Made by a program: the position numbers and the translations under genes
The notes under the pieces: generated by a model
Told to the model about the DNA's origin: nothing
Databases searched by the model: none
What the model saw: only the letters and a program-made list of their open reading frames with translations
Assembly: GCA_009780825.1 (NCBI GenBank)
Contig: WQZH01000001.1
Location: 1-64,000 of the forward strand
From: Desulfobulbus sp.
GTDB taxonomy: Bacteria; Desulfobacterota; Desulfobulbia; Desulfobulbales; Desulfobulbaceae
Direction: 5' to 3'
DNA length: 64,000 nucleotides
Shown: positions 5,146-24,380 of the stretch, in pieces
Layout: each line of letters begins with the position of its first letter
How positions within the stretch are numbered: the first letter of the stretch is position 1

Positions 5146-5167
5146 ACCGTACGGAGAGCAATGACCC

Positions 5168-5575: not shown

Positions 5576-5618
5576 AGAGCCTGCCCGCAGTCGCGTACCG
5601 CTCTCAACTGTGGGGACC

Positions 5619-6985: not shown

Positions 6986-7072
6986 ACCGACTCCTTTTGT
7001 CCTGAACGAAAGGCCCGAGCGGGATATAGACTCTCATGTTTCCGTTCTCTGTCGGGTGTACCCCAAAAGAAA

Positions 7073-7103
7073 AGCGGATCAACGTGTTCAACGTTGATCC
7101 GCT
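7073..7103 (-). terminator. Intrinsic terminator between two convergent genes
   Basis: A perfect inverted repeat, AGCGGATCAACGT with a five-base loop and ACGTTGATCCGCT, sits between the frameshifted secreted-protein gene and the RcnB-like gene. On the minus strand it is followed by a T-rich run (complement of AAAAGAAAAG), so it best fits termination of the minus-strand gene, but the symmetric stem may work both ways. Confidence 0.75.
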
Positions 7104-7165
7104 CCATTTGTGCTGATCGTGAGCGCAACAGCCGCGGTTGTTATCCTGAGACGCCGTTGCTGTTC

Positions 7166-7639
7166 TCAGGGAGCAAGCAGTACCTGCGCAATGATGCCGG
7201 TGCCGATAGCCGCCAACACAAAGTTGCCGTCCACCAGCAGCCACTGGTGGCCATAGGGCGGCTCGTACAGACCGTACCTCGGCCAGTCGCTGATGATGTA
7301 GCGCTGGTAGCCGCGGCTGTAGTAAGGGGGCATGGCGTATCCAGGGCGGAAGTAACCATGTGGGCTGCGCCAGGACTCCGAGAATTTATAGCGGTTGTAG
7401 CCTGCCGGCGCCGGAGGCCGCGTGTAAGCTGACGGACCGTGAGGCGGCGGGCCGTATACTTTGGCCGGCGGCGGGCCGTATACTTTGGCCGGCGGCGGCC
7501 CTGGCGGCTTGACGGCGGGCGGATGCGGCCTATTAGGATCGGGTGGATAATAGTCCGGGCCGGCGGCCTGCGCGACGGCGATTTGGCTGACAATCAGCAT
7601 GAATGCGACGATAGCGCCCAACAAAACTTTTTTGTACAT
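7166..7639 (-). CDS. RcnB-like secreted protein with proline-rich repeat
   Basis: A 157-residue protein starting MYKKVLLGAIVAFMLIVSQ, a Sec signal ending near AQA, after a GGAG site. The middle is proline-rich and contains PPPAKVYG twice. The C-terminal 70 residues fit the RcnB family pattern: a Tyr-rich stretch, then YGLYEPPYGHQW and a glycine-containing hydrophobic end. RcnB proteins are periplasmic and, in E. coli, affect nickel and cobalt homeostasis; most relatives are uncharacterised. No metal-transport gene is adjacent, so a metal role here is inference. The start at 7639 is preferred because longer frames place the signal peptide internally. Confidence 0.65.
   Translation of the reverse strand: MYKKVLLGAIVAFMLIVSQIAVAQAAGPDYYPPDPNRPHPPAVKPPGPPPAKVYGPPPAKVYGPPPHGPSAYTRPPAPAGYNRYKFSESWRSPHGYFRPGYAMPPYYSRGYQRYIISDWPRYGLYEPPYGHQWLLVDGNFVLAAIGTGIIAQVLLAP
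7443..7490 (-). repeat. Two perfect 24-bp tandem repeats inside the RcnB-like gene
   Basis: The 24-base unit is present twice without mismatch, with a third, diverged start following. It encodes the octapeptide PPPAKVYG. The complete identity points to recent duplication or slippage in the linker region. Confidence 0.85.
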
Positions 7640-8005
7640 GACACTCTCCTTTTTGATGAATTGGCGCGGCAAAAACCGGTATTGCCGGTAGTGGGTAAGA
7701 ACCTGGGCAAAAAGTAGAACAATGGCATGTGAAGAGTCAGAGGACATGTGCGCATTTCCTGAAGGAAGGGCCATGATTAAGTAAAAGTCTATCGTATTGC
7801 AGCAGGAATGCAAAGATTTTTTGTTTCAGGACGGAGACGCGCTTTGCGAGCTGATTCGCGACATAATCCAGCAAACTTTGGCAGCCAACCTCTGGCAGCA
7901 GAAAGGAGCGTGGCCCTGATCGGCAAGGACAAACCGCACCGATTGCCGGCGAGCCATGCCCCTGCAAAACATATCCGCGAAGATCATCGCGCAGCCAACG
8001 GCACC
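7640..8005. other. Divergent intergenic region between the RcnB-like gene and xdhC
   Basis: The 366 bases between the two divergent starts hold open frames that extend upstream of both genes, but no recognisable domain or signal. Promoters for both directions must lie here; I cannot identify a convincing core element. Confidence 0.4.
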
Positions 8006-9058
8006 ATGAAAAAACTGATTCAACGCATCTGCACCAGCCTGGCCGCCGGCCAAGACCTAGTACTCGTGACTATCTCCAGCCAGTCCGGCTCCACGCCACG
8101 CCTGGCTGGCGCCAAGATGATCATTTCCCGTGACGGCCGCATCAGCGGCACCGTTGGCGGCGGGTTGGTCGAAGCCAAAGCCATGGAGGGAGCCAGCACC
8201 TGCTTCGCCACCAGGCGCTCTCTGCGCCATGCCTTCGACCTCGACAATAGCGACGCAGCCGCCACCGACATGATCTGCGGCGGCCGACTGGAACTTTTCC
8301 TGGAGTATATCGGCGCCGACGAGGCCAACCGGCGGACTTTTCACGATCTGTTGACAGCCGTGCAGTCTGGTCGCCGGGTCGTCTTGGTCAGCCAACTCAC
8401 GGACGGCAACGGCCCCGCCCTTCGTTTTGTGGTCGATCACCAAGGGGCGGAGAGCCGCGACGATATTGCCGGATCTTTGCTGACAGCGGTCAAACAGGGC
8501 AGTTCATCCATCGCAACCTCGGCCCTGATCAAGCATCAGGAGCAGTTCTATCTGCTCTCCTCTTTCGCAGTGACCGGCACGGTCTACCTGATCGGCGCCG
8601 GCCACGTCGCCGCCTGTACCGCTGAAGCCGCCACCCGGGTCGGTTTTCGGGTGGCAGTCATGGATGACCGTCCTGAATTCGCCAACCGCGAACGCTTCCC
8701 CGAGGCCGACACCATCAAGGTACTCCCCTCCTTTGCCGATTGCTTCCAAGGTTTCGAGATTGACAACGACTCCTATCTGGTGATCGTTACCCGCGGTCAC
8801 CTGCATGATATGGAGGTGCTTCATCAGGCCCTACGGACCGAGGCCGGCTACATCGGCATGATCGGCAGCCGCAAGAAGCGCAACGCCATTTATGCCGAAC
8901 TGATGGAGCGGGGCGTCAGTGAACAGCGGCTGGAGCAGGTGCGCTGCCCAATCGGGGTGGCGATTGAAGCCGACACTCCCGAAGAGATCGCGGTGTCGAT
9001 CGTCGGCGAACTGATTTACCAACGGGCCACTGCCCGCAGGACATGGCGTCTGACATAA
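8006..9058 (+). CDS. xdhC: XdhC/CoxI-family molybdenum hydroxylase maturation factor
   Basis: A 350-residue XdhC/PaoD-type chaperone, which in characterised systems binds molybdopterin cofactor, supports its sulfuration and inserts it into xanthine-dehydrogenase-family enzymes. Visible features are the N-terminal XdhC domain (SQSGSTPRLAGAKM, then GTVGGG) and the C-terminal Rossmann domain (VYLIGAGHVA, then MDDRPEFANRERFP). The start at 8006 (MKKLIQRIC) is chosen because upstream residues do not look like the family. Its end overlaps the MocA-HD gene by 16 bases, so the two are cotranslated. The client is probably the molybdenum hydroxylase encoded at 977-5145. Confidence 0.88.
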   Translation: MKKLIQRICTSLAAGQDLVLVTISSQSGSTPRLAGAKMIISRDGRISGTVGGGLVEAKAMEGASTCFATRRSLRHAFDLDNSDAAATDMICGGRLELFLEYIGADEANRRTFHDLLTAVQSGRRVVLVSQLTDGNGPALRFVVDHQGAESRDDIAGSLLTAVKQGSSSIATSALIKHQEQFYLLSSFAVTGTVYLIGAGHVAACTAEAATRVGFRVAVMDDRPEFANRERFPEADTIKVLPSFADCFQGFEIDNDSYLVIVTRGHLHDMEVLHQALRTEAGYIGMIGSRKKRNAIYAELMERGVSEQRLEQVRCPIGVAIEADTPEEIAVSIVGELIYQRATARRTWRLT

Positions 9059-10281
9059 ACGCGATCATTCTGGCCGCCGGCTTCTCCTCGCGGATGGGCG
9101 AGATGAAGGGGCTGCTCCCCCTGGGGGGGCGCACTATGCTGGCGCGGTGTGTGGATCTGTTCCTCGACTGCGGCATCAAGGATGTGGTGGTGGTCACCGG
9201 CCACCGGGCCGATGAGGTTGGAGCTGCAGCCAAGGCTGCTGGGGCGCGGGCCGCCTTCAATCCCGACTATGCCGACGGCATGTACGGCTCAATCCGAACC
9301 GGCGTGGGCAGGCTGGCCGCGCGCTGTCCCGGCTTTTTCCTGTTGCCGGTGGATATCCCCCTGCTGCGTCGCGGCACCATCCATCTGCTTGCCCGATCAT
9401 TTGCCGAGACGCGGGCAATGCTTTCCTACCCGGTGTTCGCCGGTCGGCGCGGACACCCGCCGCTCATTCATGGCGATTGCATTGCCGCCATCCTGGCCGA
9501 ACGAGCACCCGAGGGCGGCCTCCGTACCCTGCTGGCCAGGATTGAGGCGAAACAGCCGACGCAGGTGCGGGAGGTACAGGTGGCTGACGCCAATATCCAC
9601 CTTGACCTCGATACTCCGGAGGATTTTCTCGCCGGCAGCCTACGGTTCGAGTGTCGCGGCTGGCCCACCATAACCGAATGCGAGACGATCCTCACCCGCA
9701 TCCACCCCATGCCAGCCAAGGGACTGGCCCACGGACGGGCCGTGGCCGAGGTGGCCGTGGCCATGGGCGAGGCGATCAACCAGCACAGCGGCCGGAACAT
9801 CGATCTGGAGTTGTGCCGGGTTTGCGGCTGGCTACACGACCTCGCCAAAGGCCATCCCCATCACGAGACCGAAGGGAGGCGTTGGCTGGAGGCGCTGGGC
9901 TTCGATCAGGCCGCCGCCATCGTTGCCGCCCATAAGGTTCTGGACTGGACCCCGGGGATGGCAATTGGCGAACGGGAGTTGGTCCATTTGGCGGACAAAC
10001 TGGTGCGGGGCAACCGGCTCGTTGGTATCGAGGAGCGATTCGAGGAAAAGTTGAGCCTCTATCGGAAAAATCCCGAAGCGATTCGTGCCATCGGTTGCCG
10101 TTACCAGCTGGCCATGCGGTTGGCCGCTGCGGTCGAAGAGGATATGGGGCAGTCCCTGACAGTGTTGAGCGAAATTGCCGGGCCCACCTCTAATCGCGGC
10201 GACGGTACCTGGAGCGAACAGTGCCGGTTCGGCGTTTCATCATCACCACCGCCGCTCCGAACAGGGCGAGAAAGAGGATGA
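9043..10281 (+). CDS. MocA-like molybdopterin nucleotidyltransferase fused to an HD domain
   Basis: Residues 1 to about 195 form a nucleotidyltransferase of the MocA/MobA-like family (LAAGFSSRMGEMKGLLPLGG, then PVDIPLL), expected to make the cytosine or guanine dinucleotide form of Moco. Residues from about 215 to 360 form an HD phosphohydrolase-like domain (AHGRAVAEVA, CGWLHDLAKGHPHHE). This fusion is known in Clostridia and Desulfobacterota beside XdhC, but the job of the HD part is not established to my knowledge. The gene starts inside the xdhC end, and its last 92 bases overlap the 3' end of the convergent carboxypeptidase gene. Confidence 0.85.
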   Translation: MASDINAIILAAGFSSRMGEMKGLLPLGGRTMLARCVDLFLDCGIKDVVVVTGHRADEVGAAAKAAGARAAFNPDYADGMYGSIRTGVGRLAARCPGFFLLPVDIPLLRRGTIHLLARSFAETRAMLSYPVFAGRRGHPPLIHGDCIAAILAERAPEGGLRTLLARIEAKQPTQVREVQVADANIHLDLDTPEDFLAGSLRFECRGWPTITECETILTRIHPMPAKGLAHGRAVAEVAVAMGEAINQHSGRNIDLELCRVCGWLHDLAKGHPHHETEGRRWLEALGFDQAAAIVAAHKVLDWTPGMAIGERELVHLADKLVRGNRLVGIEERFEEKLSLYRKNPEAIRAIGCRYQLAMRLAAAVEEDMGQSLTVLSEIAGPTSNRGDGTWSEQCRFGVSSSPPPLRTGRERG

Positions 10282-11326
10282 ATCCGACTCCCAGGCCGAT
10301 GAAAAAATTCCCCCAACTCCCGCCGACAGCGTTCTTGGTTGGTGGTTCCGGCGGAGTTGTTTCCGCTGCCGGAGACGCGGATGCCCCGTCGCCAGCGGAT
10401 GTGGCAAAAGTCACGCCGCCGGCGCCCGGCTTCGATTGTGCGGCGGCGACGGGTTTCGGCAGAGCGGCGGCCCCCATCAATTCCGGCTTCGGAGGCACGA
10501 TGGTGAACCCTTTGTTGATCAGCTCGGTGGCCTTGGCATCCCGGACCTTGCGGTCCTTGCTGCCCATGACCACGGCAATCATCCGCACACCGCCCCGCTG
10601 GGCGGTCACCGCAATCGAAAAACCAGCCGCCTGGTAGTATCCGGTCTTGAATCCGTCACAGCCGGCAAGCTGACCGAGCAATTTGTTGTGGTTATGCATC
10701 ATGAATTTGTCTTCCCGGAATCCTTTGCTCCGGGTACTGGTGTACTTCAAGGCTTCGGGTTGTTTGGCCAGGGCACGGCAGAGAATGGCAAGGTCACGGG
10801 CTGTGGTCACATCGGGTTCCTGCCCTTCGGAGGGCGGCAGGCCATGCACCGAATGAAATTTCGTATTTTTCATGCCCAATTCCTGCGCCTTCTGGTTCAT
10901 CAAGACAACAAACCCGTCCTTGGACCCAGCAATATGCGTCGCCAGGGCAACGGCGGCATCGTTGGCGGACTGCACCATCAGGGCATACAGCAAATCCTCC
11001 ACCGAAAATTGCTCCTTGGGGTCGAGATACACCTGGGAGCCACCGGTCTTGGCCGCTTCCGTCGTCACCTGCACCATCTCGTCCAATTTCAGGGTTCCCT
11101 GCCCGATACGCTGCAGGATCACGTAGAGATCCATCAGTTTGAGCACGCTGGCCGGGTACAGTTTGGCGTCGGCATTGGCCTCAAACAGAACCTTGCCGCT
11201 GTCAGCCTCGATCAACAGGGCGGATGCGTAGGGGTCTTGGGCAAGGCTTTTCACCGGTGCCCGCGCGGCCCAGACAACGGGAACCATCATCAGCACGAGC
11301 AGGATACAGAGTGCACAACGTTTCAT
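10190..11326 (-). CDS. D-alanyl-D-alanine carboxypeptidase, penicillin-binding protein 5/6 family
   Basis: A peptidase S11 enzyme that trims the terminal D-Ala from peptidoglycan pentapeptides in the periplasm. Counting from the start used here, the catalytic SxxK motif is S60-V-L-K63, SxN is S120-A-N122 and KTG is 227-229. A signal peptide (MKRCALCILLVLMMVPVVWA) comes first, and a C-terminal membrane segment near the end replaces the amphipathic anchor of E. coli PBP5. The start at 11326 places the signal at the N-terminus with GGGAG upstream; a start nine codons earlier is possible. About 55 residues before the anchor are a Pro/Ala-rich linker. Confidence 0.88.
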   Translation of the reverse strand: MKRCALCILLVLMMVPVVWAARAPVKSLAQDPYASALLIEADSGKVLFEANADAKLYPASVLKLMDLYVILQRIGQGTLKLDEMVQVTTEAAKTGGSQVYLDPKEQFSVEDLLYALMVQSANDAAVALATHIAGSKDGFVVLMNQKAQELGMKNTKFHSVHGLPPSEGQEPDVTTARDLAILCRALAKQPEALKYTSTRSKGFREDKFMMHNHNKLLGQLAGCDGFKTGYYQAAGFSIAVTAQRGGVRMIAVVMGSKDRKVRDAKATELINKGFTIVPPKPELMGAAALPKPVAAAQSKPGAGGVTFATSAGDGASASPAAETTPPEPPTKNAVGGSWGNFFIGLGVGFILFLALFGAAVVMMKRRTGTVRSRYRRRD

Positions 11327-11753
11327 CTTCTTCACGACTCCCGGTTCATACATTGAATACAGAATTGATGGGACAAATGCATTGTCGCACCAGTTCGCTG
11401 AACTGGTGAATGCTTACCACAAAGCACCCGTCGGCACCAGTGAAACCATGCCGGATCAGAACAGTCGGGCAGGAATGCGCATCTTTGCCACCCCCGAATT
11501 CTCCATGTTTTTTGCCATATTCGGGCAGATCAATACGCTGTACAAAATCTTGCTTTCCCGAGTCCCTGCGGGTATTAATAATGTAAGCATGGAGCATCGG
11601 ACAGCGCCTTGCCTCGTACCATCATTTTGTTGTCCAGCAGCGCCTTTTTGCCGGACAACAGCTTGCTATTCAGCGTTTCTCATGGCGCATTGCCCTTGCC
11701 TTCCGACCAGAAAGATGCACCCCCAAAATTAACCATATTGTTCAGGAGCGACC
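11327..11753. other. Divergent intergenic region with small inverted repeats
   Basis: The 427 bases between the carboxypeptidase and nfnA starts contain a palindrome at 11388-11408 (CACCAGTTC-GCT-GAACTGGTG) and a weaker inverted repeat GTTGTCC/GGACAAC at 11629-11659. The first could be an operator or a leader hairpin. No gene is recognised here. Confidence 0.45.
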
Positions 11754-12614
11754 ATGTTCAAAATCGTACGGACAGAGGAACTGGTTCCGACCTCGGTGTT
11801 TCTTCACGAAATCGAAGCTCCGAGGGTGGCGCGCAAGGCGCAACCGGGTCAGTTCCTCATCTTGAAAGCCACGGAAACCGGAGAGCGCATTCCTCTCACC
11901 ATGGCGGACACCAACCCGGAAACCGGCACAGTGACGGTGATCTTCATGGTCGTGGGCAAATCCACCGCCATCTTTTCCGCTCTGAAGGCGGGCGAAACCT
12001 ATACGGACCTCATCGGTCCCCTCGGCCGTCCGACCGACATTGAAAAGGTCGGTCATGTGGTCTGCGTGGGCGGCGGCACCGGCATCGCGGTGCTGCATCC
12101 TCTCGCCCGGGGCATGAAGAAGGCCGGCAACAGGGTCACCACCATTCTCGGCGCCCGCAGCGAGAATTTTCTGATCTTCAGAGAGCAGATGGTCGCCCTG
12201 TCCGACGCCCTGATCGCCATGAGCGACGATGGCTCCACCGGCCGCAAGGGATTCGTCACCGATGCCTTAAAAGAGGTCATAGCCACGGACAAGCCGGATC
12301 TGGTGGTGGCCGTTGGCCCTGTCCCGATGATGCGGGCTGTCAGCGAGTTGACCCGACCCGAGAAAATCCATACCCTGGTGAGCCTGAACCCGGTCATGGT
12401 GGACGGCACAGGCATGTGCGGCTGCTGCCGGGTCACGGTGGGCGACGAGATTAAATTCGCCTGTGTCGACGGTCCTGAATTCGACGGCCACAAGATTGAT
12501 TTCCACGGTCTTACCCAACGCCTGAACGCCTACAAGGCTGCGGAAGCCGAAGCCATGACGGCCCATCGCTGCCGCATGGAAGCTCAGGCAAAACAACTGG
12601 AACAACAGGCATAA
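11754..12614 (+). CDS. nfnA: NfnA-like NADH-dependent ferredoxin:NADP+ oxidoreductase, small subunit
   Basis: A 286-residue ferredoxin-reductase-fold protein with an N-terminal FAD barrel, a central NAD-binding domain (CVGGGTGIAVLHPLARG) and a C-terminal 2Fe-2S motif, GTGMCGCCRV then ACVDGPEFDGH (Cys222, 224, 225, 237). That combination marks the SfnA/NfnA/PyrK-like group. With the next gene it would form the electron-bifurcating transhydrogenase that couples NADH, NADPH and ferredoxin. An AGGAG site precedes the ATG. The partner starts 19 bases downstream, typical of nfnAB. A sulfide dehydrogenase label is an older name for the same family. Confidence 0.85.
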   Translation: MFKIVRTEELVPTSVFLHEIEAPRVARKAQPGQFLILKATETGERIPLTMADTNPETGTVTVIFMVVGKSTAIFSALKAGETYTDLIGPLGRPTDIEKVGHVVCVGGGTGIAVLHPLARGMKKAGNRVTTILGARSENFLIFREQMVALSDALIAMSDDGSTGRKGFVTDALKEVIATDKPDLVVAVGPVPMMRAVSELTRPEKIHTLVSLNPVMVDGTGMCGCCRVTVGDEIKFACVDGPEFDGHKIDFHGLTQRLNAYKAAEAEAMTAHRCRMEAQAKQLEQQA

Positions 12615-12633
12615 GGCTTACCGGAGAAGAGCT

Positions 12634-14040
12634 ATGCAAGCAACGCAGAACACACCCAAAGACCGGCATCCCATGCCTGAACAACCAGCCGATGTGCGCC
12701 GTCATAATTTTTTGGAAGTGCCGCTCGGCTATACGGAAGAGTTGGCCAAGGCCGAGGCATCCCGCTGCCTCCAATGCAAGATCCCCAAGTGCGTGGAAGG
12801 CTGCCCGGTGGCTGTGCCCATCCCTCAGTTCATCCGGGCCATCACCCAAGGCCAGCTTGCCGAAGGCATCCGCATCATCTGGGCCAAGAACGGCCTACCC
12901 GCGGTATGCGGCCGGGTTTGCCCCCAGGAAAACCAATGCGAGGGGCAGTGCATACTCGGGAAGAAGGGGAAGCCCGTGGCTATTGGCAATCTGGAGCGCT
13001 TCCTCGCCGATTGGGAACGGGCCCACGGCGACGGTTCCCTGCCGGGAAAACAACCGCCCACGGGAAAACGGGTGGCGGTGGTGGGCAGCGGGCCATCCGG
13101 GCTGACCGTGGCCGGCGACCTGATTCTCAAGGGCCATGCGGTCACCCTGTTCGAAGCCTTCCACAAGCCGGGCGGTGTGCTGAGTTACGGCATTCCTGAA
13201 TTTCGTCTGCCCAAGGACATCGTCAGGGCGGAGGTCAGCATCCTGGAAAAACTCGGCGTGGAACTTGTCTGCAACACCGTTATCGGGCGGGCGGTGGATG
13301 TACACGAACTTCTGAGAGAGGAGGGGTATGACGCGGTCTTTGTCGGGGTCGGCGCCGGGCTGCCCCGTTTTTTGAATATCCCCGGGGAAAACCTGATCGG
13401 CGTCTATTCCGCCAACGAATACCTGACCCGCGCCAACCTGATGAAGGCATACGATCCGCTCTACGACACCCCGCTGGTCCCGGGACAAAACGTGATGGTG
13501 GTGGGCGGCGGCAACGTGGCCATGGACTCGGCGCGTACCGCGCTCCGCATGGGTGCGAAATCGGTGAAGATCGTGTATCGCCGCTCACGCGAAGAGATGC
13601 CGGCGCGGGCGGAGGAAGTCCATCACGCCGAGCAGGAGGGGGTGGAATTCCTGCTGCTAGCCAATCCGCTCCGGTTGGACGGCGACAGTGACGGCCGCCT
13701 GACTTCGGTCACCTGCGAGCGGATGACCCTGGGCGAGCCGGATGCCTCCGGCCGCCGCCGTCCGGTTCCGCTTCCGGGGGCTGATTTCACCATGGACTGC
13801 GACCTGGCCATCATCGCCGTCGGTTCCGGGGCCAACCCGCTGCTCACCAGTTCCGAACCGGCAATCAAACTGAACCGGCGCGGCAATATCGATGCCGATC
13901 CGGAAACCGGCAAAACATATATGCGGGGCGTCTGGGCCGGAGGCGACATCGTCACCGGCGCCGCCACGGTGATCCTGGCCATGGGCGCGGGACGCAAGGC
14001 CGCTGACAGTATGCACGAGTACCTGATGCGCGGCTGGTAA
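12634..14040 (+). CDS. nfnB: NfnB-like large subunit, glutamate synthase beta-type flavoprotein
   Basis: A 468-residue member of the GltD/NfnB family. The N-terminus has the iron-sulfur cysteine sets CLQCKIPKCVEGCPV and CGRVCPQENQCEGQC, followed by two dinucleotide-binding folds, VAVVGSGPSGLTVAGDL and VMVVGGGNVAMDSARTA. A glutamate synthase small subunit would look similar, but there is no gltB-type large subunit nearby and the NfnA-like gene directly upstream favours the bifurcating transhydrogenase. In sulfate reducers NfnAB balances NADPH, NADH and ferredoxin pools. The gene ends at a strong terminator shared with the convergent CoA-transferase gene. Confidence 0.85.
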   Translation: MQATQNTPKDRHPMPEQPADVRRHNFLEVPLGYTEELAKAEASRCLQCKIPKCVEGCPVAVPIPQFIRAITQGQLAEGIRIIWAKNGLPAVCGRVCPQENQCEGQCILGKKGKPVAIGNLERFLADWERAHGDGSLPGKQPPTGKRVAVVGSGPSGLTVAGDLILKGHAVTLFEAFHKPGGVLSYGIPEFRLPKDIVRAEVSILEKLGVELVCNTVIGRAVDVHELLREEGYDAVFVGVGAGLPRFLNIPGENLIGVYSANEYLTRANLMKAYDPLYDTPLVPGQNVMVVGGGNVAMDSARTALRMGAKSVKIVYRRSREEMPARAEEVHHAEQEGVEFLLLANPLRLDGDSDGRLTSVTCERMTLGEPDASGRRRPVPLPGADFTMDCDLAIIAVGSGANPLLTSSEPAIKLNRRGNIDADPETGKTYMRGVWAGGDIVTGAATVILAMGAGRKAADSMHEYLMRGW

Positions 14041-14132: not shown

Positions 14133-14951
14133 TCAGGCCTTTTTCACCTTGGGAATGAAGATCTGGTCCGGATCAAGCACATCGTGGATAAAATACAACT
14201 CTTCCTTGGTCGGCGGTGAGGTTTCGCCTGCGCACCGGGAGGTGTCGAGATCGAACTGGCAGAGTTCCTTGATCTCCGCCGGTGTCTTGCCCGGATGGCA
14301 GGTATCCAGATACATGTGGCCATCGTTTTCGTCAAAACGGAATACGCCGGCAGTGCTGATCACCGCCGAGGGCCCGCCGCGGAAGGATGCGCCATACAAC
14401 TCGCTGCGGTGCACCCACTCGCCCCCGGGCCACTTTTTCACCCGCCATCCGGGGCTGGTGAGGTAGCTCACCCGCTCGACGAAGCGGCGCTTCTCGTGCA
14501 CCATGATGAACACTGTCCGTTTGGCGAACGCGTTGATGTCGGGATTGCCGCCGCTGCCGGTGAGGCGAAGCTCCGGCGCCAGATAGTTGCCGATGCAGGT
14601 CGTGTTGACGTTGCCATACAGATCGATTTCAGCGCCGCCGAGATAGCCGAGATCGACATAGCCGCGCTGGGCGATGGAAAAGGTGTCGTACAGACCGGAG
14701 GAAAGCGAGGCGCCGGCGTCACAGCGGGCGTCGCCCACCGAGGTGGGCAGCTCCGGCGGCCGGCAGTCGATGGCCCCGGCCTCGAAGATCAGTTTCAGAT
14801 TCGGGGCATGGGTCTTCTGGGCCAGCAGGATGGCCACCATGGGCAGACCGGTGCCGGCGAAAACAACTTCATTGTCCTGTACTTCACGGGCGGCGGCGCA
14901 GCACAGCAGATCCGCCAGGCCATACTCTTCGGGCGATGCATAGTTGCTCAT
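14133..14951 (-). CDS. gctB: Family I CoA-transferase beta subunit, glutaconate CoA-transferase type
   Basis: A 272-residue subunit of the GctB type. The stretch VVFAGTGLPMVAILLAQKTH followed by LIFEAGAIDCRPPELP contains the glutamate expected to carry the CoA thioester in family I transferases. Paired with the alpha subunit 15 bases upstream, it moves CoA between acids such as acetyl-CoA and a dicarboxylic or short-chain acid. Substrate specificity cannot be read from sequence: glutaconate, 3-oxoacid and other acids all use this fold. It ends at the shared terminator, closing a thiolase-dehydrogenase-transferase gene set. Confidence 0.8.
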   Translation of the reverse strand: MSNYASPEEYGLADLLCCAAAREVQDNEVVFAGTGLPMVAILLAQKTHAPNLKLIFEAGAIDCRPPELPTSVGDARCDAGASLSSGLYDTFSIAQRGYVDLGYLGGAEIDLYGNVNTTCIGNYLAPELRLTGSGGNPDINAFAKRTVFIMVHEKRRFVERVSYLTSPGWRVKKWPGGEWVHRSELYGASFRGGPSAVISTAGVFRFDENDGHMYLDTCHPGKTPAEIKELCQFDLDTSRCAGETSPPTKEELYFIHDVLDPDQIFIPKVKKA

Positions 14952-14966
14952 CGTATCTCCTCTCTT

Positions 14967-15920
14967 CTAGTTGCGGGGTCTGTAGTTGAGGGCGGTATTG
15001 GCCCGGAGATTCAGCATGCGGGACCAGCCAAGTTTTTCCAGGTAGCTGATATGATCAAGTCCGTAAATCCACTCCTTGGCAAAGTCGTCAAAGCCTTCCT
15101 GGGTGCGGGTGCGCCCGTAGAAATCCTTGAGGAAAGCACCATCGACGTCATAGCAGCCGAACACGCCCGTCGGGTGGGCGCCGAAGGGACACTCGAGGAT
15201 GTAATCGACTTCGAAGCTGGGGACGGTGTTTTGATCGGCGTTGCGGCGGAGATACTCCTCGGGGACGATCTCCTCGGCCATGACGATGGTGATGTCGGCG
15301 GCGCGAACGGCCTCGGGGTCGGAATTCAACTGACCGGCCACCCGGACCGTGCCTTCCTCGCCCACCTGCTGGACGCAGAGGATGGCCACGTCGATCTTCA
15401 CCGCCGGGATCAGCACCTGGGGTCCGGCATCGAAGAAGGGGTCCTCGGTAAAGATGTACTTTTGTTTGGCGATCCGCTTGCCGTCACGCCTGCCGGCGCG
15501 TCCCAGCATATCGTATTCCGGATTGTGGAGATCGGTGCCGAGCGAAGTCTGGGTGACTGCATAGGGGGCGCCCTGGGCAGCGGCAGCAAAACGGAAGATC
15601 ATTTCCGCGTGGCTGTAGTCCTCGACTATGACCTCCTTATTGATGACCTTGCGTGACATGTTGGCGCCATATTTGCCGTAGAGTTCATGCCCGACCCAGC
15701 AGGATTCCCATATATCGACACAGCCGGCGCCCACCAGAAACTCGCTCTGGGGCCCGCCATTGACCTCGATCAGATGCAGGCCGCGCCGCTTCTGGCGAAT
15801 CAGTTCGTAGACTATGGCAAAGGGTCTCCGCCAGATGGTGAAACCGGAGAAGGTCAGGCTGGAACCATTCTTGACGATTTCCGCCGCCTGTTGCAGGGTG
15901 ATGCGTTTGTTCGTGCTCAT
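14967..15920 (-). CDS. gctA: Family I CoA-transferase alpha subunit, glutaconate CoA-transferase type
   Basis: A 317-residue alpha subunit of the GctA type, with the N-terminal SSLTFSGFTIWRRPFAIVYE and the following ELIRQKRRGLHLIEVNGG typical of the CoA-binding half of the enzyme. It lies between the acyl-CoA dehydrogenase (17 bases upstream) and its beta partner, so the three are probably one transcript. The set could activate a fatty or dicarboxylic acid to its CoA ester before oxidation, or release an acid product at the end of a fermentation-like branch; direction is not decided by sequence. Confidence 0.8.
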   Translation of the reverse strand: MSTNKRITLQQAAEIVKNGSSLTFSGFTIWRRPFAIVYELIRQKRRGLHLIEVNGGPQSEFLVGAGCVDIWESCWVGHELYGKYGANMSRKVINKEVIVEDYSHAEMIFRFAAAAQGAPYAVTQTSLGTDLHNPEYDMLGRAGRRDGKRIAKQKYIFTEDPFFDAGPQVLIPAVKIDVAILCVQQVGEEGTVRVAGQLNSDPEAVRAADITIVMAEEIVPEEYLRRNADQNTVPSFEVDYILECPFGAHPTGVFGCYDVDGAFLKDFYGRTRTQEGFDDFAKEWIYGLDHISYLEKLGWSRMLNLRANTALNYRPRN

Positions 15921-15937
15921 GCTGTTCTCCTTGCTGT

Positions 15938-17098
15938 TCAGGCGGAGATCCCCCGGAGAATCTCCCGGGAGATGATCAGCCGTTGGATTTCACTGGTGCC
16001 TTCGTAAATGGTCGTAATGCGGGCGTCACGGGCATAGCGTTCGACCGGGAACTCCTGAGTGTATCCGTAACCGCCCAACAATTGCAGGGCATTGTAGCAA
16101 GCCCGGTTGGCGCTCTCGGTGGCGAACAGCTTGGCCATGGATGCCTCCTTGGCAAAGGAACGCCCCTGCTCTTTCCGGAAAGCGGCGTTCAGCAGCAGCA
16201 GGCGGGCCGCTTCCAACTCGGTGTAGGAATCGGCGATCATCCATTGAATCGCCTGAAAATTGCTTATTTTCTGATTGAACTGTACCCGTTCGCTGGCATA
16301 GCGGGTGGCGTAGTCCATGGCAGCCAGCCCCACACCCAAGCCAAGCGAGCCGATGCCGATCCGCCCTCCGGCCAATTCGCCCACCGCAATCCTGAAGCCG
16401 TCGTTCGGCTTGCCCATCATACTTGAGGCCGAAACACGACAATTCTCGAAAACCAGCTCGTTGGTGGCCGAGGCGTGCTGACCCATCTTCTTTTCTTCCT
16501 TGCCGATGGTGAGTCCCGGAGTGCCAGTCTCAATCAGAAAGCAACTGATGCCCTTGCCCTTGGGCGCCTCCTTGTCGGTCACCGCCCAAACAACAAACAC
16601 ACCGGCATAAGGAGCGCTGGTGATGAAAATTTTGGAACCGTTGAGCACAAAGAAATCGCCGTCTTTGACTGCGGTGGTGACCATGCCCGAAGGATCGGAA
16701 CCAGCGGAGTTCTCGGTAAGGCCGAAGCTGCCTGCCGCATACTCGCCCGAACAGATTTTGGGAATGTATTTCTTTTTCTGTTCTTCCGTGCCGATGGCTT
16801 GGATCACCTCGCAGACCATGTTGTTCACCGAGACCGTCACCGCCGTCGAGGCGCAGGCCCGGGCGATTTCGGTCATAGCCACGCTGAAGGCAACTACGCC
16901 GGCTTCCGAGCCACCGTATTCCTCCCTGACGTTGAGCCCCATAAATCCCAGTTCCGCCAGTTTTTTCAGGTTGGCAAGCAGGGTCACCCGATCCTTCTCC
17001 TGATCGAGTCGGGCGGCCACCGGTTCAAGTTCGGATTTGGCAAAATCCCGGGCAGTATCTTGGATGAGTTTTTGTTCCTCGGTTAAATCCAAATTCAT
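15938..17098 (-). CDS. Acyl-CoA dehydrogenase, short-chain type
   Basis: A 386-residue flavoprotein of the acyl-CoA dehydrogenase family, introducing the alpha-beta double bond in acyl-CoA. Visible family features are FGLTENSAGSDPSGM, the central SAPYAGVFVVWAVTD region, LLGGYGYTQEFPVERYARD, and YEGTSEIQRLIISREIL near the end, which includes the catalytic glutamate position of short-chain enzymes. Electrons normally go to electron-transfer flavoprotein; no etf genes are in this window. A GGAGGAG ribosome site precedes the ATG. Butyryl-CoA or glutaryl-type substrates are both possible, and the CoA-transferase neighbours fit either. Confidence 0.9.
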   Translation of the reverse strand: MNLDLTEEQKLIQDTARDFAKSELEPVAARLDQEKDRVTLLANLKKLAELGFMGLNVREEYGGSEAGVVAFSVAMTEIARACASTAVTVSVNNMVCEVIQAIGTEEQKKKYIPKICSGEYAAGSFGLTENSAGSDPSGMVTTAVKDGDFFVLNGSKIFITSAPYAGVFVVWAVTDKEAPKGKGISCFLIETGTPGLTIGKEEKKMGQHASATNELVFENCRVSASSMMGKPNDGFRIAVGELAGGRIGIGSLGLGVGLAAMDYATRYASERVQFNQKISNFQAIQWMIADSYTELEAARLLLLNAAFRKEQGRSFAKEASMAKLFATESANRACYNALQLLGGYGYTQEFPVERYARDARITTIYEGTSEIQRLIISREILRGISA

Positions 17099-17455
17099 GC
17101 TTACTCCTCCTGTTGAATATTCGTGACGGGTACAAGGTGAATAGAAAAACTCTTTCTCCTCCTTTTGTTAAGGCCGCACCCCATCTTCTTTGCCTGCTGC
17201 CATGGGGCGGACTCACAGTTGCACCCCCCAGGCCCGCCGCCACCAACGCCCTTCCCTCCTCCGGTTGTTCCTGGAATGACGGCAAAAACAATCCCGTAAC
17301 TAGCGAGCCCCCTTCTCCTTGCGTTTTCCTTACCTCCATTCCGGGCCGGAGAAGATACACATTCCCTTCTCATCCGATGGGTTAGCCGTTGTATCCGTAA
17401 ACGGCCTGATTGGCGGAACGGGACAGCGCTCTGAATGCATATGCAGAAAACAGGA
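17099..17455. other. Gap between thiolase and acyl-CoA dehydrogenase genes
   Basis: The 357 bases hold no recognisable gene on either strand and no clear hairpin. The length suggests either a separate promoter for the dehydrogenase-transferase genes or the remains of a lost gene. I see nothing more in it than the good ribosome site at its left end. Confidence 0.4.
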
Positions 17456-18631
17456 TCATCGCTTCACGATCATGGCCACAGCCTCTCCTCCCCCGAGGCA
17501 CAGCGACACCAGACCGCTTTTTTTGTCCTGCCGGATCATTTCGTGCATCAGCGTAACCAACAGCCGGCAGCCGCTGGCGCCAATCGGGTGGCCCAAGGCC
17601 ACACTACCGCCATTGACGTTGACTTTGGCCGGGTCGAGGGCCAACGTCTTCAGTGCTGCCACGGTTGAACCGCTGAACGCTTCGTTGATCTCGTAGAGAT
17701 CAATGTCTTCCTTGCTGAGACCCTCTTTGGCCAGACATTTGGGCACCGCCCAAATGGGGGCCACCAGTACGTATTTCATGTCGATGCCATAGGAGGCCTG
17801 GGCACCGATGGTGGCCATGATCGTGCAGCCCAACGCCTCGGCCTTTTCTCTGCTCATCACCACGACTGCGGCGGCGCCGTCGGAAATGATCGAGGCATTG
17901 CCGGCGGTGGTAACCCCACCTTGCTTGAAGGCCGGCTTCATCTTGGCCAACTGTTCGTAGCTGGTTGCCTGGGGGCACTCGTCCTGACGAAACACCTTCG
18001 GATCGCCTTTGCGCTGCGGGAGTTCCACGGCCACGATCTCGTCCTCGAACTTGCCGGCAGCCTGCGCTGCCAATGTCCGCCGGTAGGATTCGGCAGCATA
18101 CCGGTCCTGATCCTCACGGCTGACCTCGTAGCGTTCGGAGCACAATTCGTTGGAAATACCCATGTGGAAGTCGTTGACGATATCCCACAGGCCGTCGTGC
18201 ACCATGTGGTCGTGCAAGGTGGCATCGCCCATACGGTAGCCGAAGCGCGCCTTCTTCAGGAAATAGGGCGCCATACTCATGTTCTCCATACCTCCGGCAA
18301 CCACCACATCGGCATCGCCTGTCTGTACCGCCTGGGCCGCCAACATTACGGCTTTCAACCCGGAACCGCAAACCTTGTTCACGGTGACTGCCTCTACCTC
18401 CCAGGGCATACCGGCCTCAACAGCCGCCTGCTTGGCCGGGTTCTGACCATACCCGCAGGGAAGCACCATACCCATAATCGCCTCGTTCACCTCTTCCTTG
18501 GCAATACCGGCACGACGAATGGCCTCGGCAATGACGATACCCCCCAATTTGGTGCCGCCCATGGCAGCCAAAGTGCCGTTGAAACTGCCCAGAGGTGTCC
18601 TGACCGCGCTGACGATCACTGCTTCTCGCAT
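17456..18631 (-). CDS. Acetyl-CoA acetyltransferase (thiolase)
   Basis: A 391-residue thiolase of the biosynthetic-size class. The three catalytic residues are at classic positions: nucleophile Cys88 (NKVCGSGLKA), His348 (VALGHPIGASG) and base Cys378 (LCLGGGEAV). It interconverts two acetyl-CoA and acetoacetyl-CoA, or cleaves 3-ketoacyl-CoA in beta-oxidation. AAAGGAGG lies upstream of the start. It is the first gene of a same-strand set with an acyl-CoA dehydrogenase and a CoA-transferase, which argues for degradation of a short-chain acid; enoyl-CoA hydratase and hydroxyacyl-CoA dehydrogenase are absent here and must be elsewhere. Confidence 0.92.
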   Translation of the reverse strand: MREAVIVSAVRTPLGSFNGTLAAMGGTKLGGIVIAEAIRRAGIAKEEVNEAIMGMVLPCGYGQNPAKQAAVEAGMPWEVEAVTVNKVCGSGLKAVMLAAQAVQTGDADVVVAGGMENMSMAPYFLKKARFGYRMGDATLHDHMVHDGLWDIVNDFHMGISNELCSERYEVSREDQDRYAAESYRRTLAAQAAGKFEDEIVAVELPQRKGDPKVFRQDECPQATSYEQLAKMKPAFKQGGVTTAGNASIISDGAAAVVVMSREKAEALGCTIMATIGAQASYGIDMKYVLVAPIWAVPKCLAKEGLSKEDIDLYEINEAFSGSTVAALKTLALDPAKVNVNGGSVALGHPIGASGCRLLVTLMHEMIRQDKKSGLVSLCLGGGEAVAMIVKR

Positions 18632-19574: not shown

Positions 19575-20273
19575 TTATTCCTTTCCGCAGGCAGCCTTCT
19601 TGGACATTTTTTCCACTCCCTTGCTTCCGATGTGGCAGGAAGTACAACGGGTATTGGCGGCAAAGGAGATATTGCCGTTGTGGCAGACACCGCAATACCT
19701 GCCAGCATAGAGCGCCCGCATGTTAAATTTGCCGAGTTGTTCTTCGGCGGCTCCCCGGCGCATCTCAAATTCTTTGTCGTGACAGCTGGCGCAATCCAAC
19801 CCCAGGCCGACATGTTCCTTATGCTTGAACAACACGCCTTTGACCGGCCGGTTGAACACGACGATCTCCGGTTGCTTCATATCGCTGCCATGGCATTTTT
19901 TGCAGGTCTCCGGCCCGGTGGTATTGAACGCGGTCGTACCGTTGTGGCAGGAACCGCAATATTTACCGGCATCCAACGAGGCCATATTGTAATCACCCTT
20001 GGCTTTCGCGGCTCCCAACTTACGGTCGAACAGACTCGGATGACAACTGTCGCACGTCAAACCAGCCGCCACCACATGGGTCTTGTGGCTGAACATGTTC
20101 TTGACTGATTCCATCTCGATGATCTGCGTATTACCAAACGATTCGTACTGCTTCACCGGGACGGCTTTGTCAGCGGGGCTGGTCGTCGGAGCGGCATCTT
20201 GTTCCTTCGCCACGGAAGTTCCCACGGTCGCGACAAACCACAGGGCAGCGATCAAAAGCATCTTCACTTTCAT
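19575..20273 (-). CDS. Periplasmic hexaheme c-type cytochrome, two triheme modules
   Basis: A 232-residue secreted cytochrome (signal MKVKMLLIAALWFVATVG...). Six CxxCH heme sites begin at Cys74, 106, 124, 161, 194 and 210. Residues 61-128 and 150-214 are an internal duplication with the shared pattern F-x-HK-x-HV, LxCxxCH, GAA, NM, AG-x-YCGxCHNG and CxxCH, so the protein is a tandem pair of triheme class III/c7-like modules. It should carry electrons in the periplasm. It follows a four-cluster ferredoxin gene by 19 bases, and the pair resembles the electron-transfer part of Qrc or Nrf-type complexes; QrcA is likewise a hexaheme cytochrome. Confidence 0.9.
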   Translation of the reverse strand: MKVKMLLIAALWFVATVGTSVAKEQDAAPTTSPADKAVPVKQYESFGNTQIIEMESVKNMFSHKTHVVAAGLTCDSCHPSLFDRKLGAAKAKGDYNMASLDAGKYCGSCHNGTTAFNTTGPETCKKCHGSDMKQPEIVVFNRPVKGVLFKHKEHVGLGLDCASCHDKEFEMRRGAAEEQLGKFNMRALYAGRYCGVCHNGNISFAANTRCTSCHIGSKGVEKMSKKAACGKE

Positions 20274-20292
20274 ATTGTTCTCCTTTTACCCT

Positions 20293-21060
20293 TTATATGT
20301 CCAAAGTCACATTCATATAAAACACGTTGGGCAAAGCGCCAGTCTCAGGGCGCAGGACCCACACCGTGGTCTCCGGTTGATGCACGAGCTTGTACACTTC
20401 GCTGTTCGGGTCGCTGAGGTCGCCAAAGACCCTGACTTTAGCGGGGCAAGCTTCGACGCAGGCCGTATCCTTCATGCCCTTGGTGAGACGAGTATCCCAG
20501 CAAAAATTGCATTTGTCCACCGCCCGGCGCTCTTCATTGAAATAGCGGGCATTATACGGGCATGCCGCCATACATGTTTTGCAACCGATGCATTTCTTGC
20601 TTTCCATCATGACAATGCCGGTGACTTTGTCTTTGTAGGTCGCCACGGTCGGACAAACGCGCACACAGGGTGGTTCGTTGCACTGGTTGCAGAGGACGGG
20701 CATGAAAATCGTCTCTTTTTCCTGAGGGCCGATATTTCGGGTCCGTTCGAGAATTCTGGTCCTCCAGCCATAGTGCGGCACATGGTTGGTCTGGATGCAG
20801 GCATCCATGCAACGCTCGCAGTCAACGCACAGATTTTGCCGCATGACCATGCTGTAGTGAGGGCTGTAAGCATGTCGTTTATCCTGCGGCATGGAAGCCA
20901 CGGCGCCTTTTGCGCCACGGACAGAGGTCAGCGACAAGATCGTTCCCCCCATGAACAATCCGGTGATGGCTAGCCCGGCACGCAGAAAGGTGCGGCGTTC
21001 CAGGGAAGGGAGGTCGTCCACCCCTTCATTGGTTAATTTTTCCAGCTCGTTAATGTTCAT
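20293..21060 (-). CDS. Tat-exported ferredoxin-like protein with four 4Fe-4S clusters
   Basis: A 255-residue iron-sulfur subunit of the DmsB/PsrB/NrfC/HybA group. Sixteen cysteines form four sets: 78, 81, 84, 88; 124, 127, 132, 136; 157, 160, 163, 167; and 184, 187, 201, 205. A twin-arginine signal (ERRTFLRAG at 21-29 with a hydrophobic segment after it) sends the folded protein to the periplasmic face. Partners in such complexes are an NrfD-type membrane protein and usually a catalytic or cytochrome subunit; both an NrfD gene (upstream, across the MerR gene) and a hexaheme cytochrome (downstream) are present. A FadR-like site lies 84 bases before the start. Confidence 0.9.
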   Translation of the reverse strand: MNINELEKLTNEGVDDLPSLERRTFLRAGLAITGLFMGGTILSLTSVRGAKGAVASMPQDKRHAYSPHYSMVMRQNLCVDCERCMDACIQTNHVPHYGWRTRILERTRNIGPQEKETIFMPVLCNQCNEPPCVRVCPTVATYKDKVTGIVMMESKKCIGCKTCMAACPYNARYFNEERRAVDKCNFCWDTRLTKGMKDTACVEACPAKVRVFGDLSDPNSEVYKLVHQPETTVWVLRPETGALPNVFYMNVTLDI

Positions 21061-21143
21061 TCCATGCCCTCAACAGAAAAATAATAAAGACGAGTCGAGT
21101 ACCTTGTGCTCCAAGACCCTGTTGCGGCGCAAGCAAGCCCGCA

Positions 21144-21161
21144 AATGAATGCCCACTCATT
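21144..21161. promoter_or_regulatory. FadR-like operator upstream of the ferredoxin-cytochrome genes
   Basis: The 18-base sequence AATGAATGCCCACTCATT has the form AATGA-N5-CACTCATT, identical in fixed positions and spacing to the site in front of the TetR-family gene. It matches 11 of the 16 fixed positions of the Bacillus FadR consensus TGAATGAnTAnTCATTCA as I recall it. It lies in the 206-base gap between merR and the ferredoxin gene, where a promoter for the ferredoxin and cytochrome genes is expected. Binding is inferred from the match, not shown. Confidence 0.5.
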
Positions 21162-21266
21162 AATTCTTAAAAACAACACGGGAACATACTTCAAAACCTT
21201 GAGAAGAGCAAGTTCCCAAAATATGACAGCCCTCTGTCTTGTTGCGGTAAGACGACCGGCGTTTTT

Positions 21267-21686
21267 TTACCCGGAGTGTTCGCGCTTCTGCCTTTCCAGC
21301 TCACTCCCCTCCTCCCCGGCGGCCTTCTTTTCCCCGGCCTGGGACATGGCCCGCATGGCTGTTCTCTCAACCTTGGCCGCGCACCGTTCATGGATCGCCG
21401 CAGGACAACCGGCCACTTCCCAACAGGGAATGTGATCCAGTAATTTTTTCAACCCGGGTATGCTGATACCTTCCTCATGAATAAATGTCCGCAAACAAGT
21501 GACCCAGCGAATGTCATCGGCGGAAAATATCCGTCGATTGCCTGCCATGGCAGGCTTGATCAAACTTTCCTGTTCGTAAATCCGCAACGTTCGAGGATGC
21601 ACGTTCAACAATTTGCCAGCTACACCGATCGGATAGATCGGCACGCCTGATCGAATCGCCTGAATTTCCGTTTTCTTTCTCGCCAT
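21267..21686 (-). CDS. MerR-family regulator with C-terminal cysteine motif
   Basis: A 139-residue regulator. Residues 17-85 are a MerR DNA-binding domain (IGVAGKLLNVHPRTLRIYE, then RRIFSADDIRWV) of the HspR-like branch. After the dimer helix comes CWEVAGC...C with Cys88, 94 and 102, plus Cys64 in the DNA-binding domain. A C-terminal CWE motif is, from memory, frequent in MerR proteins of sulfate reducers and could hold a metal or Fe-S cluster. The gene lies between nrfD and the ferredoxin gene on the same strand, so it may control the complex. The last 35 residues are charged and probably disordered. Confidence 0.8.
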   Translation of the reverse strand: MARKKTEIQAIRSGVPIYPIGVAGKLLNVHPRTLRIYEQESLIKPAMAGNRRIFSADDIRWVTCLRTFIHEEGISIPGLKKLLDHIPCWEVAGCPAAIHERCAAKVERTAMRAMSQAGEKKAAGEEGSELERQKREHSG

Positions 21687-21734
21687 ACCGCCTTCCTGTC
21701 AACGAGGAGCATCAGGATGGGCACAGAATCGCCA

Positions 21735-22928
21735 TCAATGGTCTTCGGACAGATGACCACGAAACAGCCGCTCGCCCATCATGAAGAGAATGGTGCAGAA
21801 AGTGAATCCGGACAGCGTCACCATCCACTCGTGCAGTGTCGGCGTATAGGGCAGAATATGGGGCAGATCGACGATGTTCAGCTCATGGAAACCAGGAATG
21901 CTCAAGCCCATGACCACCAAATCGTAACGCATGACAAAAATGCCCACAATACTTGCCGCCGAGCCGATGGCCATGGCAGTCAAATTCCTGGCGCGGACCG
22001 CAAGAATGATCAGCAGAGGAATCGTCAAGCCCAGCGCCACTTCCCCGTACCAGAAGTTGTGGGCAAAGGGGCCGTCGAGCAGAGCCATGAAGGCCTCGTA
22101 TTCTCCCGGCGGATGCCCGGCAAGGCCGGCGATGCACTTCCAGGTGGTGAAAAACATGATGACGATGTAGAGCAGAGCTCCCAGTTTGGCTACCGACCGG
22201 AGGGATTCCTGCAACTGCTCGCTCATCTTCCAGCCATTGATTTTGTATCCGAGCCAATGGAAGAAGATGACCGTGGCGCAACCGGACATCATGGCCGAAA
22301 CGATGAAGTAGATCGGCATGTACGGCCCATGCCAGTATTCCCGGCCATTCAGCAGACCGAAGACCGCGCCCAGATTGGAGTGGGCGGCGACACCCGAAAT
22401 CACTCCCAGCAAGCCACACATCCCGGCAATTTTGTGGCGCCCGGCCTGGAGCAGAGCGAACTCTATCAGCATAAAGACGAGATAGGCCCCGTACAGCGTT
22501 CCCATCCACCAGATATTGGATGTGAGATTAGGCGAAATGACGTTGTATACCGCCATTCTCCAAGGGTTCTCGATCTCGAAAAAGATCACCAGAAAACCGG
22601 ATACGATGGTGGCGATGGCCAGATAAACCGAGCGTTTGGCGATCGGTTTGAAGGCGGCAAAACCGAAGACATGACCGATGGACGAAACCAGGCAAAGCCC
22701 GGTCGAGGTGACGACGAAGAACACATAGGCCGCAAGCATCAAGCCCCACGGTATCTCACGGGTGACGCCATAGGCATGCTCATGGCCGATCAACATCGCG
22801 TGCACCCCAAAACCAATACCCACGATGGTCAGGAGCCAGAACAGGCCGATGGTCCCGTTATACAGCTTCGATTGGCTCCCTTCAAGCCCTCCTTCCTGGG
22901 GCAAGACCTTTGCTAACATCGCCTTCAT
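21735..22928 (-). CDS. NrfD/PsrC-family membrane subunit of a quinone-linked oxidoreductase
   Basis: A 397-residue integral membrane protein with about ten hydrophobic segments, of the NrfD/PsrC/HybB type. Such subunits carry the menaquinone site and pass electrons to or from a periplasmic ferredoxin subunit. No cofactor-binding motif is expected in it. A GGAGGAAGAGG site precedes the start. It is the first gene of a minus-strand group that continues with merR, the four-cluster ferredoxin and the hexaheme cytochrome. Which direction electrons flow (menaquinone to cytochrome or back) is not decided by the sequence. Confidence 0.87.
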   Translation of the reverse strand: MKAMLAKVLPQEGGLEGSQSKLYNGTIGLFWLLTIVGIGFGVHAMLIGHEHAYGVTREIPWGLMLAAYVFFVVTSTGLCLVSSIGHVFGFAAFKPIAKRSVYLAIATIVSGFLVIFFEIENPWRMAVYNVISPNLTSNIWWMGTLYGAYLVFMLIEFALLQAGRHKIAGMCGLLGVISGVAAHSNLGAVFGLLNGREYWHGPYMPIYFIVSAMMSGCATVIFFHWLGYKINGWKMSEQLQESLRSVAKLGALLYIVIMFFTTWKCIAGLAGHPPGEYEAFMALLDGPFAHNFWYGEVALGLTIPLLIILAVRARNLTAMAIGSAASIVGIFVMRYDLVVMGLSIPGFHELNIVDLPHILPYTPTLHEWMVTLSGFTFCTILFMMGERLFRGHLSEDH

Positions 22929-23789: not shown

Positions 23790-24380
23790 ATGAAATCAAC
23801 GGATAAGCACAGAAAGATCATTCGCGCCGCCACCAAGGTTTTTGCCAAGAAAGGCTTCTTCAACGCCAGGATCTCCGACATCGCCAAAGAAGCCAAGGTG
23901 GCCGATGGCACCATTTACCTGTACTTCAACAATAAATTCGACATTCTCCTCTGCGTCTTCGAACAGGAACTCGGCAAACTGATTGAACATGTCAACCTGT
24001 TGCTCGACAAAGAAACCAGCGCCAAAGCCAAACTGGAAATCTTCATCACCAACCATCTCGAAGAGATGAAGAAAAACCGCTATCTCGCCGAGGTCATCCA
24101 TATCGAGCTGCGTCAGACAGCCAAAATCATCCGGGAATACAGAAAAAATACCTTCAACGACTACCTGAAAATCATTGGCGTCATTATCGAACAGGGGCAA
24201 AACGAGGGGACGTTCCGCAGGGATATCCAACCGGACGTTGTCCAGCAGGTCGTATTTGGCGCCTTGGATGAAATTTCCATCTGCTGGCACACGGGCAGTT
24301 CCTGGCCCTACACTCCGGAAGAGGTCAGTGCCCAACTGACCAGCCTGTTCCAAACCGGTCTGCTGATACCGGCAACCTGA
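23790..24380 (+). CDS. TetR-family regulator, FadR-like
   Basis: A 196-residue TetR regulator. The N-terminal helix-turn-helix (KIIRAATKVFAKKGFFNAR, then DIAKEAKVADGTIYLYFNNK) and the C-terminal region resemble Bacillus FadR (YsiA), which represses fatty-acid oxidation genes and is released by long-chain acyl-CoA. A FadR-like palindrome lies 31 bases upstream. Its neighbours are an NrfD-ferredoxin-cytochrome cluster, with thiolase and acyl-CoA dehydrogenase genes about 5 kb away, so it may link electron disposal to fat or acid oxidation. The ligand is inferred from the resemblance only. Confidence 0.82.
   Translation: MKSTDKHRKIIRAATKVFAKKGFFNARISDIAKEAKVADGTIYLYFNNKFDILLCVFEQELGKLIEHVNLLLDKETSAKAKLEIFITNHLEEMKKNRYLAEVIHIELRQTAKIIREYRKNTFNDYLKIIGVIIEQGQNEGTFRRDIQPDVVQQVVFGALDEISICWHTGSSWPYTPEEVSAQLTSLFQTGLLIPAT

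Follow-up and report, generated by a model that had tools for sequence, protein, structure and literature searches.

A candidate menaquinone:cytochrome complex without a catalytic subunit

What can an NrfD-type membrane protein, a four-cluster ferredoxin and a multiheme cytochrome accomplish where no catalytic gene stands beside them? The question is raised by a 64,000-nucleotide stretch of Desulfobulbus sp. (contig WQZH01000001.1 of assembly GCA_009780825.1, positions 1 to 64,000; hereafter the window), in which nrfD1 is followed on the minus strand by merR1, then by a ferredoxin gene and finally by a cytochrome gene. A preliminary description of this DNA had reported the three electron-transfer genes, with a merR gene among them and no catalytic gene, and had suggested that they might form a poorly described complex through which menaquinone meets periplasmic cytochromes. 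We found all four genes at the positions given there and no molybdopterin, hydrogenase or NrfA gene within the group. In our assessment the genes probably encode a three-subunit menaquinone:periplasmic cytochrome oxidoreductase that lacks a dedicated catalytic subunit, an activity and a direction which we infer from the comparisons below. The features of the locus are:

22928-21735, minus strand: nrfD1, ActC-like membrane subunit of 397 amino acids (PF03916)
21686-21267, minus strand: merR1, MerR/HspR-type regulator of 139 amino acids (PF13411, MerR_1)
21220-21262, minus strand: junction at which the related locus L033 has an additional 2.8 kb that includes a PAS-sigma54 activator gene, none being present here (blastn of L033 against the window)
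21060-20293, minus strand: ferredoxin subunit of 255 amino acids with four [4Fe-4S] motifs and a twin-arginine translocation (Tat) signal (Fer4_11)
20273-19575, minus strand: hexaheme cytochrome with two c7 triheme units and a Sec-type signal (two TIGR04257 domains)

Pfam assigned NrfD1 to PF03916 (104 bits; cut-off 25.8), the merR1 product to MerR_1 (47.5 bits), the ferredoxin to Fer4_11 (83 bits) and the cytochrome to Cytochrome_C7 (96 bits), the last also matching two NCBIfam TIGR04257 triheme c7 domains (116 bits summed; cut-off 40). None of NrfD1, the ferredoxin and the MerR protein reached an NCBIfam equivalog cut-off. The merR1 product is HspR-like with a score under the cut-off, and NrfD1 matched only the HmcC, DsrP and NrfD models, all far under their cut-offs (40 bits for TIGR03148 against 348), with no match to QrcD. 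The genes of the trio are real and conserved, as identities of 91 % (NrfD), 90 % (ferredoxin) and 79 % (cytochrome) are kept in L033, the nearest relative compared. The genome from which the window derives (G000; 2.75 Mb in 56 contigs) holds only one other PF03916 gene, which adjoins a ferredoxin on contig C7 and groups with DsrP.

Conservation and phylogenetic placement of the module

A scan of named genomes returned 443 NrfD relatives, and we retained the 80 that best matched a Smithella-type query. NrfD, ferredoxin and c7 cytochrome occur together in 68 of these 80 loci, and several of the other 12 have a cut stretch or an intervening sigma-54 gene. Most of the cytochromes bear 3, 6, 9 or 12 hemes, the numbers that between one and four triheme units would give, and one Smithella-type group has 7. 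Catalytic genes were sought with ten queries of the NapA, PhsA, PsrA, NrfA, HybC, QrcB, DsrK and HmcA types in 120 loci (1.6 Mb); matches were obtained in only four loci, and no NrfA-like gene was present in the 120. The family as a whole normally lacks a catalytic subunit, and the window is no exception. Direct adjacency was seen in L087 only, where an outlying NrfD (43 %), a PsrA-like molybdopterin protein and a ferredoxin are encoded in what looks like an operon (9139-13074).

Of 258 genomes from the class Desulfobulbia, 208 hold a relative of NrfD1 (E ≤ 1e-20), a count that includes the NrfD2 paralogue described below and a few borderline matches. Among 395 genomes of the phylum, family members are set apart at E ≤ 1e-80 (50 genomes) by a sharp gap, the next best match being 2e-48. 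Within the best 80 relatives the family extends to Smithella-type syntrophs, Thermodesulfovibrionales and other Nitrospirota, Thermodesulfobacteriaceae and Desulfobulbia, together with a few Geobacter, Geothermobacter and Desulfuromonadaceae and subsurface bins labelled Thermoleophilia or Gaiellales. Our searches of open-licence papers, which give partial coverage of the literature, found no description of this NrfD/ferredoxin/c7 module and no paper combining NrfD with cytochrome c7. This appears to be a widespread and apparently undescribed family of menaquinone:cytochrome c7 modules.

The NrfD1 family formed a clade of its own, with a Shimodaira-Hasegawa-like approximate likelihood ratio (SH-aLRT) of 98 in a quick tree and support of 100/99 and 100/100 in two careful trees, the former including Act proteins and the latter E. 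coli NrfD, PsrC and DsrPh. The clade is separate from QrcD, NrfD, PsrC, HybB, HmcC, DsrP, DsrPh, the Act proteins and CbcU; long branches separate the NrfD families, so that the order among them is unsure, while the unity of the NrfD1 family is well supported. The phylogeny suggested in the preliminary description therefore places NrfD1 outside the QrcD, NrfD and Act clades and with none of the known families compared, and its proposal of a poorly described complex is strengthened by this separate clade and by the catalytic-free trio found across lineages.

Conserved quinone-site residues and a predicted exported electron wire

The AlphaFold2 model of NrfD1 (predicted local distance difference test score, pLDDT, 83) has ActC as its best structural match (Z 36.6, 2.5 Å over 371 residues). 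Across the ActC subunits of four alternative complex III structures, values of Z 35.7-36.6 and root-mean-square deviations of 2.5-2.8 Å over 371-373 residues were obtained, followed by ActF (Z 28.2), cytochrome bd subunits (about 19-23) and PsrC (20.6). At the level of sequence, phmmer of NrfD1 against PDB sequences gave no match and a PDB profile search with NrfD matched ActC (6f0k_C) alone. Four residues shown or proposed to be important in QrcD, Ser138, Asp120, Asp70 and Arg358 (PMC13059093), correspond to S137, E/D118, Y68 and R334 of NrfD1, each kept in 32 of 32 family rows. PsrC likewise has Tyr at the position of QrcD Asp70, and the equivalent Psr residue, Y23, is essential (PMC13059093). 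Model and alignment together show NrfD1 as a predicted ActC-like membrane subunit with a conserved set of quinone-site residues.

The ferredoxin has 16 cysteines in four cluster motifs and the Tat motif ERRTFLR, and its nearest solved relative is PsrB (2vpw_B, E 2e-40), features that show it as a predicted Tat-exported wire of the NrfC/PsrB type. With its NrfD-type neighbour it has the composition of an NrfC/NrfD dimeric redox module, including the counterparts of QrcD Ser138 and Asp120; Tyr113 of the ferredoxin partner is not conserved. In the QrcC model this tyrosine covers the quinone. The corresponding residue in 69 loci is Thr (42), Ser (10), Ile (9), Val (6), Asn (1) or Ala (1), and a residue other than Tyr at this position is a mark of the present NrfD/ferredoxin/c7 family.

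The closest solved relative of the cytochrome is GSU1996 (3ov0, E 5e-39). Six CxxCH motifs account for six of its ten histidines and the remaining four are distal, leaving two hemes without a second histidine. Met97 and Met185 are conserved and are likely to be the sixth ligands of these hemes, which fits the single His/Met heme in each triheme unit of GSU1996 (PMC10138318). Across motif matches the sixth-ligand position is Met in 79 cases and His in 4, the His being carried by a few Thermodesulfovibrionales. The cytochromes of L119, L122, L123 and L135, with c7 units of the Thermodesulfovibrionales type, have this replacement, so the heme ligand likely switches between lineages. Judged by its motifs, the window protein is a predicted exported wire in which two triheme c7 units probably hold one His/Met heme apiece. 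GSU1996 itself, a 12-heme c7 nanowire cytochrome, has four such units as opposed to two, and the role described for it is that of a soluble store of electrons in the periplasm rather than that of a subunit accompanying NrfD.

Gene order and a second membrane subunit

In most Desulfobulbia loci read, nrfD1 and the adjoining merR1 are followed by a divergent PAS-sigma54 activator gene, the ferredoxin-cytochrome pair and then often a second NrfD gene, nrfD2, with its own merR2. The preliminary description had suggested surveying genomes for a conserved nrfD-merR-ferredoxin-cytochrome order: the trio is indeed conserved, but a merR inside the group is not usual. It appears there in the window because the sigma-54 activator gene that usually stands between merR and the ferredoxin is absent. 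Between merR1 and the ferredoxin, the comparison with L033 (81-82 % DNA identity) shows the sigma-54 gene alone to be missing, at 21262/21220, and nrfD2 is likewise absent from the window. The same compact order is found in L171 and L177 and so is not a quirk of one assembly. A search with a sigma-54 promoter pattern gave one site, on the plus strand inside the start of nrfD1, and hence no usable promoter. From its adjacency, the merR1 product is taken to regulate the unit.

Most relatives carry the second NrfD with its own MerR. The complete congener G036 keeps the ferredoxin (81 % identical) and the cytochrome (67 %) with an nrfD2 whose product is 42 % identical to that of nrfD1, and nrfD1 was not found in that genome; the best NrfD1 matches of three incomplete congeners lie at the same level. 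Its locus (L271; G036:C1:2043500-2053500, 2617-5583), holding ferredoxin, six-heme cytochrome and nrfD2 only, is a mirror image of the window. As the window has nrfD1 only and G036 nrfD2 only, both with the same ferredoxin-cytochrome pair, the arrangement suggests that NrfD1 and NrfD2 may be interchangeable membrane subunits. A more elaborate proposal, which we consider rather unlikely, is that Desulfobulbia possess a switchable complex in which a single ferredoxin-cytochrome pair would serve either of two NrfD paralogues, each with its own MerR and under a PAS-type sigma-54 activator; cells would thereby shift the potential or direction of electron exchange between menaquinone and periplasm, and the complex would take the place of Qrc in linking quinone and cytochromes in these sulfate reducers.

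Relation to known respiratory complexes

By far the closest solved fold is that of ActC, and in alternative complex III (Act), too, quinol gives electrons to a c-type cytochrome. In many relatives of the window a single ferredoxin and a single cytochrome accompany two NrfD-type subunits, again as in Act. However, the window cluster has no large ActB subunit, its ferredoxin being a free 255-amino acid protein, and the trees place NrfD1 apart from Act. A candidate alternative complex III from the window's own family, the dsrOhPh-tetrahaem locus of cable bacteria, similarly comprises a ferredoxin, an NrfD-type protein and a periplasmic cytochrome, but the cytochrome is a tetraheme, DsrPh groups with DsrP, and the genomes read with that locus lack the present family. 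One of these is the complete genome G077, of the window's family and without the present NrfD, in which the locus (L269; G077:C1:2497500-2507500, 3209-6571) encodes a Tat ferredoxin, NrfD and tetraheme cytochrome. E. coli NrfBCD shares an NrfC/NrfD pair passing electrons to a multiheme carrier; it feeds an NrfA encoded beside it, its NrfD falls in another clade and its cytochrome is not of the c7 kind. DsrMKJOP differs in that NrfD1 does not group with DsrP, a separate DsrP-type NrfD being present in G000.

Proposed electron flow and alternative explanations

In the reading we favour, menaquinol would be oxidised at a periplasm-facing site in NrfD1, and electrons would pass through the four ferredoxin clusters to the c7 hemes and from there to soluble periplasmic or extracellular partners; like other NrfD modules, the complex might release protons or transfer charge in doing so. 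Flow the other way, from cytochrome to menaquinone in place of Qrc, is possible, and some relatives may use it. Tyr at position 68 is common to NrfD, PsrC and CbcU, with Asp in QrcD and HybB; this pattern and the lack of a Tat-type hydrogenase among the PF00374 loci read lean weakly to menaquinol oxidation. Two published observations concern NrfD genes of related bacteria, which may or may not correspond to the present nrfD1: putative nrfC and nrfD of Desulfurivibrio alkaliphilus were not nitrate-induced (PMC5516251), and an nrfD was among the ten most highly expressed genes of an electrode-active Desulfobulbaceae bin (PMC4595844). Several points weigh against our reading. The argument for direction is weak, the Asp-bearing Qrc, Hmc and Hyb proteins forming one clade; the ferredoxin, in all 69 relatives read, lacks a tyrosine broadly conserved at the quinone site; the cytochrome structure was not predictable (pLDDT 42, unusable); the putative complex itself is deduced from gene order; and neither biochemical nor genetic data came to light for any family member.

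The module might, as we tentatively allow, serve mainly as a substitute for Qrc, with periplasmic cytochrome c3-type carriers charged by a hydrogenase, a formate dehydrogenase or an extracellular partner reducing the c7 cytochrome; NrfD1 would then perhaps reduce menaquinone with cytoplasmic protons, a step to which we give similarly limited credence. QrcABCD does exchange electrons between cytochrome c and menaquinone via an NrfC/NrfD-type pair, Qrc is reported to be absent from Desulfobulbales (PMC10553843), and the window genome has a TmcA-like tetraheme cytochrome and no QrcC at E 1e-40 or better. In the 395 phylum genomes QrcC (75 genomes) and the present family (50) never co-occur (hypergeometric P 1.2e-5 if independent; counted by family, 20 against 25 without overlap, P about 0.002-0.005 for 100-117 families). 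This exclusion follows lineage, however, while the test assumes independence, and it proves no replacement. The PF00374 loci of the window genome look cytoplasmic and lack Tat small subunits, no QrcB lies next to the window genes, NrfD1 belongs to a separate clade and the key Asp70 of QrcD is Tyr. That the genes supply the membrane part of an enzyme whose other genes lie elsewhere seems quite unlikely to us, though there are four molybdopterin proteins in the window genome, among them an orphan PhsA/PsrAB-like pair on contig C10 (737 amino acids and a 267-amino acid ferredoxin) with neither an NrfD of its own nor a PsrC nearby. The only PF03916 genes available there are nrfD1 and the DsrP-type gene, Desulfobulbaceae with PsrAB but without PsrC have been noted (PMC13047784), and the outlying L087 adjoins a PsrA-like gene. 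Yet PsrAB would have no need of the ferredoxin and cytochrome that the module brings, the three genes remain grouped in loci with no molybdopterin gene close by, and NrfD1 does not group with PsrC.

It is most improbable that the window holds an ordinary member of Geobacter Cbc4 (CbcSTU), a menaquinol:ferricytochrome c oxidoreductase with the same three kinds of subunit (NrfD-type protein, four-cluster ferredoxin, periplasmic multiheme cytochrome), the same proposed reaction (PMC11434368) and again no catalytic subunit. CbcU, recognised by gene order and its 4-heme CbcS neighbour following PMC10989804 and not by locus tag, stands in a clade by itself (100/100); CbcS binds four hemes and lacks TIGR04257 domains, and the gene order is different. 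Although cbcSTU is reported to be highly conserved among Geobacteraceae (PMC11434368), the present NrfD occurs in only 4 of 48 Geobacter-family genomes, and one genome of that family (G675) holds both. Set against these alternatives, a putative quinone-cytochrome module free of a catalytic subunit has strong support from comparative and structural analysis.

Neighbouring genes and implications

Directly downstream of the module (14133-18631) lie beta-oxidation-type genes, namely a CoA transferase pair, an acyl-CoA dehydrogenase and a thiolase, and upstream (23790-24380) a FadR-like TetR regulator. Elsewhere in the genome, a hydrogenase large subunit gene with an in-frame TGA near its end (L272; G000:C20:5000-16500, about 5165-6547), possibly encoding a selenocysteine enzyme, stands beside a large Fe-S gene of HdrA-like appearance, and genes for a PhsA-like molybdopterin protein and a DmsB-like ferredoxin (L090; G000:C25:13000-28000, 5710-8348) adjoin complex I (Nuo-type) genes.

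Among the Desulfobulbia are sulfate reducers found in abundance, bacteria that disproportionate sulfur and electroactive forms, from which Qrc is reported to be missing. A conserved module with an ActC-like subunit and free of a catalytic one is a concrete candidate for the link between their quinone pool and periplasmic cytochromes, and likewise in the Smithella-type syntrophs, Thermodesulfovibrionales and few Geobacter relatives that carry it.

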